Positions 57,033 to 63,902 of a stretch of DNA of 64,000 nt are shown here, one piece after another. Under the pieces are notes generated by a model. It was given only the letters and a program-made list of their open reading frames with translations, was not told the origin of the DNA and made no database searches. The stretch's first letter is position 1. Every line of letters begins with the position of its first letter. The stretch lies in assembly GCF_018398315.1 (NCBI RefSeq), contig NZ_JAHBRW010000001.1:2860501-2924500 (forward strand), read 5' to 3'. The position numbers and the translations under genes were made by a program. The stretch is from Chelatococcus sp. YT9 (GTDB lineage Bacteria; Pseudomonadota; Alphaproteobacteria; Rhizobiales; Beijerinckiaceae).

Positions 57033-57473
57033 GCTTTGCCGCGGGTGAAGGATGCTGTGATCAGATGATTCAGGGTACCAGGTTCTGCCGCGTCAAGAGA
57101 GCACCGGGGAGCGCTTAACCCCCATACGGACTTATGCACCGCGAATGTGCGCAAAGCATTGCTTTCGGCAGCGGGTTCGCTACTGTTCAGTCATGGCGGC
57201 CTTCCGGTGACCGCCTCGATATTCCCCTGCGGAATGCTCAGGTCCGCCGCATCTCCTGGGTCCCGTGGGGTTCGGCCGGTCTGGAAGTGGTGTTCTGTGG
57301 CCTCCTCGAACGCTGCTTCCGACCGGCCACCAACCCTTGCTCCGGTCAGTCACGCTCTCGTGCCGTGGCAACAAAAAAGGGCGCCGATAGCGCCCTTTTT
57401 TGTGATCGTGATCACCACAACGAGACCCGTGTCCCTAAGCACTATGAAGCACCTAGGGCTCGCGGGCTATCGA
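57033..57473. other. 441-base region without a recognisable gene
   Basis: This stretch lies between the end of pleD and the end of rpmG. The only open frames are random in composition and run through a strong terminator. Besides that terminator (57373-57401) I see no conserved element. Confidence 0.55.
57373..57401. terminator. Bidirectional intrinsic terminator between pleD and rpmG
   Basis: AAAAAAGGGCGC (57373-57384) pairs with GCGCCCTTTTTT (57390-57401) around a CGATA loop. The A-run and T-run make it symmetrical, so it can end both the pleD and the rpmG transcripts. It lies about 70 bases past the rpmG stop on the minus strand. Confidence 0.9.
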
Positions 57474-62153: not shown

Positions 62154-63902
62154 TCAGCCTTGAGGGGTCAGGGCGGCAGGTTGCTTATCGCTTGATTTCT
62201 CAGCCATCACCGCGAAATCAGTCACAGCGTAGATGTGCTCGGTCTTTCGACGGCCTCGCACGGTGATCTCATGCCGCGCGCAGCCGTCGAGCGTAAGCCC
62301 TGAGCCCGCGAGGGCGGATTCGGAGACTACCGCGAAAGCCTTGAATTCCTTGGTCATCGCCTCAAGCCGGCTCGCCGTGTTGACGGTATCGCCAAGGGCA
62401 GTCAGGGCGCCATTGTTGCGACCGTTTGTCGACAGTTCGGTCGCCGCGCCGACACGCCCGAGCACCGCCGGGCCGGTGTGAATGCCTATCCCCATGCGCA
62501 GGGGTTGCCGCAAGGTCGTGGCGAATTCGCGGTTGATCTCTTCCAGGGCAGCCTGCATGGCGCGGGCAGCGAGGAGGGCGTTGCGGCTCCCGGCGCCTTG
62601 CGCCGGCGCGATGCCAAACAGCGCCATGATTCCGTCGCCGAGGAACTTGTCGACGATGCCGTCGTGGGAGCGGATGGCCTCCGACATCAGCTCGAAATAC
62701 CGATTGAGCAGAAATACGGAGTCGTAAGGATAGATGCGTTCAGTCAGCGCGGTGAAGTCGCGCAGGTCCGTGAACATCACCGTGACGCGGCGCTCGATGC
62801 CCCAGCGATATGGATCGGCGCGGCTTCCGGCCGGCTCCGGTTCGGCGATCGCCACGAGGCGGCGCAGCGTCAGGGAATGAGTCGGTCTGATCTGGCAGGC
62901 AAGGCGCACACCTGTCGGCGCGTTGATACGCTCCAGCGCCGCCGCCTCTCCCACTTGCGGGGGCGGGAGGCTGTCGAAACCCTCGGTTATCAGGACACGG
63001 CAAGTGCTGCAGCGGCCGCGTCCGCCACAGGCTGCCGCGTGGGGGATGCCGTTAGCACGGCTGATCTCCAGCAACGTGGGGCCGGGATGCGCGCGAACAG
63101 ACTTCAAACCGGTGTAGTTTATCGAGAAGCCCGGGCGGATTCGGGCGACGACGAGCCGCGCGACGAGGATGAACAACACGGCAGCGCCGATGGCGAGAAG
63201 TACTGAGACGCCCTGACTGGTTAGTTTTTCCAGATCTTGTGCCTGCTGCGGGGTTAGAGCGCTCCCCGGCGCAACCACCTCCAGCCGACGGGCACTCTCC
63301 GTGAAGCCGAGGATGCCAAGCGCCGGAACGAGCACCGCAAGGGCAAGGAGCCAGGGGGCCGCTCTCGTATAGAAGGCTTTTGTCGAGAGCCAGAAGTGTA
63401 GCCCGATGCAGCCATGCAGCCAGACGATAAGGAGTAGCAGTGGCTGCTGCACCGCAAGAGCGGGCCAGATGTTCCGCAAAACATTCGTGTAGCGATCGTC
63501 GAGGCCGTAGAGCAGGCTCATCCCTCGCGTGGCGAGAATGTGCTGGAGCAGCCAGAATGGGATCGCAAGGCCGAGGATCAGCTGCAGCGCTTCGCTGAAC
63601 GGCATGCGCCATGTCGTGCGCCGCACAAGCTTCCACAGGCCGAGGCTGATATGGATGACAAGGGAGCCATAAAGCAGCACGGTGCCGGGGAGCGAGCGCC
63701 AGAAAGCGCGCCGCACCACGTCGAACGCTTCCATCCATGTGACGTCGACAATGCCCAGCGCGTTATTGACGAAATGAATGAGCGCAAATGCGAAGAGGAC
63801 GAGGCCGGATGCGAGACGAAGCCTCGCAATGGTCAGCTGACGACGGGAAAATGGTTGGTGCAGCCATGCGGTTCCGGTGCCCCATACGCCTCTAAGATCC
63901 AT
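62154..63902 (-). CDS. cyaC: Membrane adenylate cyclase with cytochrome-b-like anchor and [2Fe-2S] domain (CyaC-like)
   Basis: The 582-residue protein has three parts. Residues 1-255 hold six membrane segments with histidines 43, 84, 121, 163 and 169, as in a diheme cytochrome b anchor like SdhC. Residues 260-345 form a ferredoxin-like domain with Cys292, Cys298, Cys301 and Cys336. Residues 365-582 are a class III cyclase domain with metal-binding Asp379 (FTDLRDF) and Asp423 (LGDGIM), Lys419 and Asp505. This layout matches the redox-regulated adenylate cyclase CyaC of Sinorhizobium meliloti. It would couple quinone or redox state to cAMP. It converges with dprA. Confidence 0.9.
   Translation of the reverse strand: MDLRGVWGTGTAWLHQPFSRRQLTIARLRLASGLVLFAFALIHFVNNALGIVDVTWMEAFDVVRRAFWRSLPGTVLLYGSLVIHISLGLWKLVRRTTWRMPFSEALQLILGLAIPFWLLQHILATRGMSLLYGLDDRYTNVLRNIWPALAVQQPLLLLIVWLHGCIGLHFWLSTKAFYTRAAPWLLALAVLVPALGILGFTESARRLEVVAPGSALTPQQAQDLEKLTSQGVSVLLAIGAAVLFILVARLVVARIRPGFSINYTGLKSVRAHPGPTLLEISRANGIPHAAACGGRGRCSTCRVLITEGFDSLPPPQVGEAAALERINAPTGVRLACQIRPTHSLTLRRLVAIAEPEPAGSRADPYRWGIERRVTVMFTDLRDFTALTERIYPYDSVFLLNRYFELMSEAIRSHDGIVDKFLGDGIMALFGIAPAQGAGSRNALLAARAMQAALEEINREFATTLRQPLRMGIGIHTGPAVLGRVGAATELSTNGRNNGALTALGDTVNTASRLEAMTKEFKAFAVVSESALAGSGLTLDGCARHEITVRGRRKTEHIYAVTDFAVMAEKSSDKQPAALTPQG

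Follow-up and report, generated by a model that had tools for sequence, protein, structure and literature searches.

A CyaC-type, membrane-bound adenylate cyclase, probably redox-controlled, in Chelatococcus sp. YT9

A gene of Chelatococcus sp. YT9 very probably encodes a CyaC-type, membrane-bound and redox-controlled adenylate cyclase. It lies in a stretch of 64,000 nucleotides (hereafter the window; contig NZ_JAHBRW010000001.1, positions 2,860,501 to 2,924,500), to which the positions in Table 1 refer. From the deduced protein we infer that the product binds haem, carries a [2Fe-2S] cluster, responds to quinone and synthesizes cAMP.

The gene is real and is maintained under strong purifying selection. 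All 582 codons of the frame at 62154-63902 are translated without an internal stop, and the protein is 80-91% identical to its counterparts in three genomes of the same genus, with alignments that span residues 1-582 in two of them (G002 and G003) and residues 1-577 in the third (G001). The architecture is not a chance pattern, because it is common to 91 distinct full-length relatives in which four cysteines and four of the five anchor histidines are invariant, and because whole-gene dN/dS against the three same-genus genomes is 0.07-0.11; for the cyclase domain the same comparison gave values as low as 0.014. The gene neighbours are dprA, an open reading frame of 93 aa and ruvX, and this arrangement is kept in the three same-genus genomes. 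The 93-aa frame, located past the window end between the cyaC-type gene and ruvX (L051:9943-10224, minus strand), is 67-82% conserved in these genomes and had no Pfam match. A functional link with pyrB/pyrC was considered and dropped, since plsY and dprA intervene and the strand is opposite. Elsewhere in the window, an EcpR1/Atu_C6 small RNA (Rfam RF02500, 84.1 bits) was found at 57222-57333 on the plus strand, with a pleD-like response regulator/GGDEF gene on one side and rpmG on the other.

Table 1. Features of the cyaC-type gene, in window coordinates
Feature	Position	Strand	Description
Whole gene, cyaC-type adenylate cyclase	62154..63902	-	582 aa, ATG start, intact frame
Six-helix membrane anchor, SdhC/FrdC-like	63120..63839	-	Residues about 22-261; hydropathy, weak FrdC/SdhC/Sdh_cyt profile matches, profile-profile alignment
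Codon of His43, likely distal haem b ligand	63774..63776	-	Invariant (91/91); would pair with His121
Codon of His84, likely proximal haem b ligand	63651..63653	-	Invariant (91/91); would pair with His163
Codon of His121, likely distal haem b ligand	63540..63542	-	Invariant (91/91)
Codon of His163, likely proximal haem b ligand	63414..63416	-	Invariant (91/91)
[2Fe-2S] ferredoxin domain	62880..63098	-	Residues 269-341; Pfam Fer2 PF00111, 36.7 bits (cut-off 21), E 4.1e-9
Class III nucleotide cyclase domain	62229..62789	-	Residues 372-558; Pfam Guanylate_cyc PF00211, 66.9 bits (cut-off 21.9), E 2.3e-18

Hydropathy and Pfam agree with the three-part organization that an earlier note on this DNA had proposed, namely a six-helix anchor followed by a [2Fe-2S] domain and a class III cyclase. 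Six hydrophobic stretches cover residues 22-55, 70-93, 100-126, 144-174, 176-205 and 226-261. The cysteine motif of the ferredoxin domain, Cys292-x5-Cys298-x2-Cys301-x34-Cys336, was placed exactly in that note, and all four cysteines are invariant in the alignment of 91 distinct full-length family proteins on which our conservation counts are based. The cyclase had been called complete, which holds: the Pfam domain scores above its cut-off and the full catalytic set is present, comprising the metal ligands Asp379 and Asp423 (both invariant, 91/91), the adenine-specifying Lys419 and Thr501, and the transition-state residues Asn508 and Arg512.

In the anchor, histidines at positions 43, 84, 121, 163 and 169 had all been located correctly, but His169 does not stand as a ligand. 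His43, His84, His121 and His163 are invariant (91/91), whereas position 169 is histidine in 50 proteins, tryptophan in 23 and arginine in 9. With histidine kept in 50 of 91 only, residue 169 was rejected as a general haem ligand and the ligand set reduces from five to four, so that His43, His84, His121 and His163 are most likely the haem b ligands. Their spacing (41/37/42) falls within that of a diverse subset of relatives (40-42/37/42-46). Lysine and arginine are distributed unevenly across the loops, with family averages of 2.9-4.1 per loop on the inside and 1.1-2.5 on the outside, which fits a topology with the N-terminus inside, six helices, and the soluble domains and C-terminus in the cytoplasm. 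This topology would orient His43 and His121 towards the periplasm and His84 and His163 towards the cytoplasm, and the pairs His43/His121 and His84/His163 would each coordinate one haem b within a core of four helices, the two haems lying near opposite faces of the membrane. The pairing is proposed by analogy with Wolinella FrdC. An AlphaFold2 prediction on the single sequence reached a pLDDT of 41, and the model was not used.

The sequence of the anchor is poorly conserved, and in its comparison with cytochrome b subunits each score is weak alone. The anchor profile retrieved just two matches from the PDB, both weak: 5xmj (E 0.12), a fumarate reductase subunit C, and 6lum (E 1.2), a succinate dehydrogenase subunit C; in the former, His43 and His84 align with histidines of the subunit. 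Against Pfam, Sdh_cyt gave the best E-value (0.0064), yet it matches only 3 of 62 members. When the anchor was compared by hhalign with five b558-type SdhC proteins, His43, His84 and His121 fell on invariant histidines of the sdhC b558 family at a weak probability of 15-20%, and the fourth histidine was one helical turn out of register in a global alignment. The register is nevertheless that expected for homology with diheme cytochrome b. The protein would share with type-B diheme cytochromes b (sdhC b558 family, FrdC) a four-His transmembrane core, three of the four histidines being in register in the profile-profile alignment; unlike SdhC and FrdC, to which its similarity is weak, it is fused to a ferredoxin and a cyclase and lies outside any SdhAB complex. 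The anchor alignment contained no stretch conserved enough for a sequence scan.

The CyaC-type organization assigned in the earlier note matches, domain by domain, what has been published on Sinorhizobium meliloti CyaC (SMc01818): six membrane helices that carry two haem B groups, a [2Fe-2S] cluster, and a class III cyclase whose activity is reported to respond to ubiquinone and can increase upon oxidation (PMC10463352). The residues mutated in S. meliloti CyaC, Lys410, Thr484, Asn491 and Arg495, correspond to Lys419, Thr501, Asn508 and Arg512 here (PMC10463352). By this published numbering, the loop from Lys to Thr is 82 residues long in the window's protein (Lys419-Thr501) against 74 in S. 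meliloti CyaC; these eight additional residues are the only peculiarity of the window's genus that the comparison reveals. Identity to Rhizobiaceae proteins is only about 40-45%, S. meliloti CyaC itself being compared by its description. A cluster analysis of 2016 had already grouped 30 ferredoxin-linked 6TM class IIIb cyclases as cluster 1, with four spaced histidines, two predicted haems and anchors similar to the cytochrome b subunits of fumarate reductase and succinate dehydrogenase (PMC4821796). Cluster 1, exemplified by Rhodopseudomonas palustris Q132R4, shares with the window's protein the four intramembrane histidines and the ferredoxin between anchor and cyclase, and no defining difference between them was found (PMC4821796). 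Judged by its sequence, the window's protein adds one more unexceptional member to the CyaC family, whose architecture has already been described.

The design had been called rare, which the counts do not support. Matches at E 1e-60 or better occur in 117 of 397 sampled genomes of the order (29%), and matches at E 1e-45 in 52 of 397 sampled genomes of the phylum (13%). Within one family of the order, probably Rhizobiaceae, 106 of 297 genomes match. Genera with plasmid-borne copies include Rhizobium, Sinorhizobium, Phyllobacterium and Azospirillum; in Rhizobium etli, one copy carries the annotation cyaCa. A scan of genome contigs with the single protein as query returned mostly cyclase domains of other proteins, for example a 269-aa cyclase without anchor (L007), and the scan of viral contigs gave one partial match (L138).

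Variant relatives were also encountered. In one clade (L044, L047, L109-L113 and L121) the haem histidines, cluster cysteines, metal aspartates and Asn/Arg are kept, while Asn, Ser or Ala replaces the adenine-specifying Lys and Pro or Gln replaces the Thr; these proteins may use a substrate other than ATP. Three relatives in the same taxonomic family (L036, L040 and L043) have intact haem and Fe-S ligands and have lost several catalytic residues of the cyclase; they might act as redox sensors whose cyclase domain is non-catalytic. Frames of 309-325 aa in G737, G743 and G813 combine ferredoxin and cyclase, apparently without a membrane anchor.

In the proposed mechanism, the haems and the ubiquinone pool would exchange electrons, perhaps with the [2Fe-2S] domain as intermediary; a change in redox state would alter how the dimeric cyclase domains pack and, with it, cAMP output. 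Our best guess is that oxidation by quinone activates the cyclase, the direction being as in S. meliloti CyaC. A haem-binding CyaC-like protein might instead receive its main signal from elsewhere, for instance from O2, from NO or from a soluble reductant with direct access to the [2Fe-2S] domain. Such a reading draws on the ferredoxin domain, which is the best-conserved part of the protein (mean identity of relatives 56%, against 44% for the cyclase and 39% for the anchor), resembles the NqrF ferredoxin domain, which takes up electrons from a flavin, and is joined to a cyclase in some relatives in frames too short for an anchor. However, the haem ligands are invariant in every full-length member (91/91) and a ubiquinone response is reported for S. 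meliloti CyaC (PMC10463352), and we consider a main signal other than the quinone pool unlikely.

The catalytic residues bear on the product of the cyclase. Few substitutions can switch the substrate of class III cyclases, and another clade of the family has changed both purine-specifying residues; but Lys419/Thr501 is the adenylate cyclase pair, equivalent to Lys410/Thr484 of active CyaC, and a guanylate cyclase or other nucleotide cyclase with the same sensor is very improbable.

For a redox-controlled adenylate cyclase of this kind, the partners through which cAMP acts probably differ from those in S. meliloti. There, the TetR gene cycR precedes cyaC and both proteins form a complex with Clr (PMC10463352), whereas the window's gene has dprA, the 93-aa frame and ruvX as neighbours, with no TetR (CycR) gene among them. 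A RutR-like TetR gene (Pfam TetR_C_3) adjoins 18 of the fetched relatives, Sinorhizobium sp. K101 included, and we take its product to be CycR. A single well-supported section of the tree contains all 18, as well as a few members beside which this gene was not detected. The section also includes proteins with the exact S. meliloti catalytic numbering, a match that depends on the start codon chosen, and the TetR-linked Rhizobiaceae branch probably contains S. meliloti CyaC. The window's protein is on a branch separate from that group, and the RutR-like TetR of Rhizobiaceae-type members had no match in the Chelatococcus sp. YT9 genome at E 1e-10; from these two observations the downstream wiring probably differs, and a CycR-type TetR partner is probably not used. 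Eight cNMP-binding domain matches in the genome provide candidate cAMP receptors, one of which would read the signal. More tentatively, the window's branch could work without a CycR-type partner altogether and pass the redox signal to the cell's common cAMP pool or to a different receptor, with the genus-specific longer cyclase loop possibly tuning dimer coupling; we hold this as a suggestion that falls somewhat short of an even chance.

The system is known in outline and is common in relatives of the host bacterium; what the present analysis adds is the reduction of the ligand histidines to four, an estimate of abundance and a branch without the TetR partner. The family alignment fixes four histidines and four cysteines as mutation targets in any member, and the TetR partner described in S. 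meliloti is probably confined to one branch. The frequency of relatives in the order and the phylum supports the view that linking respiratory redox state to cAMP by a fused diheme-ferredoxin-cyclase is not a rhizobial curiosity.
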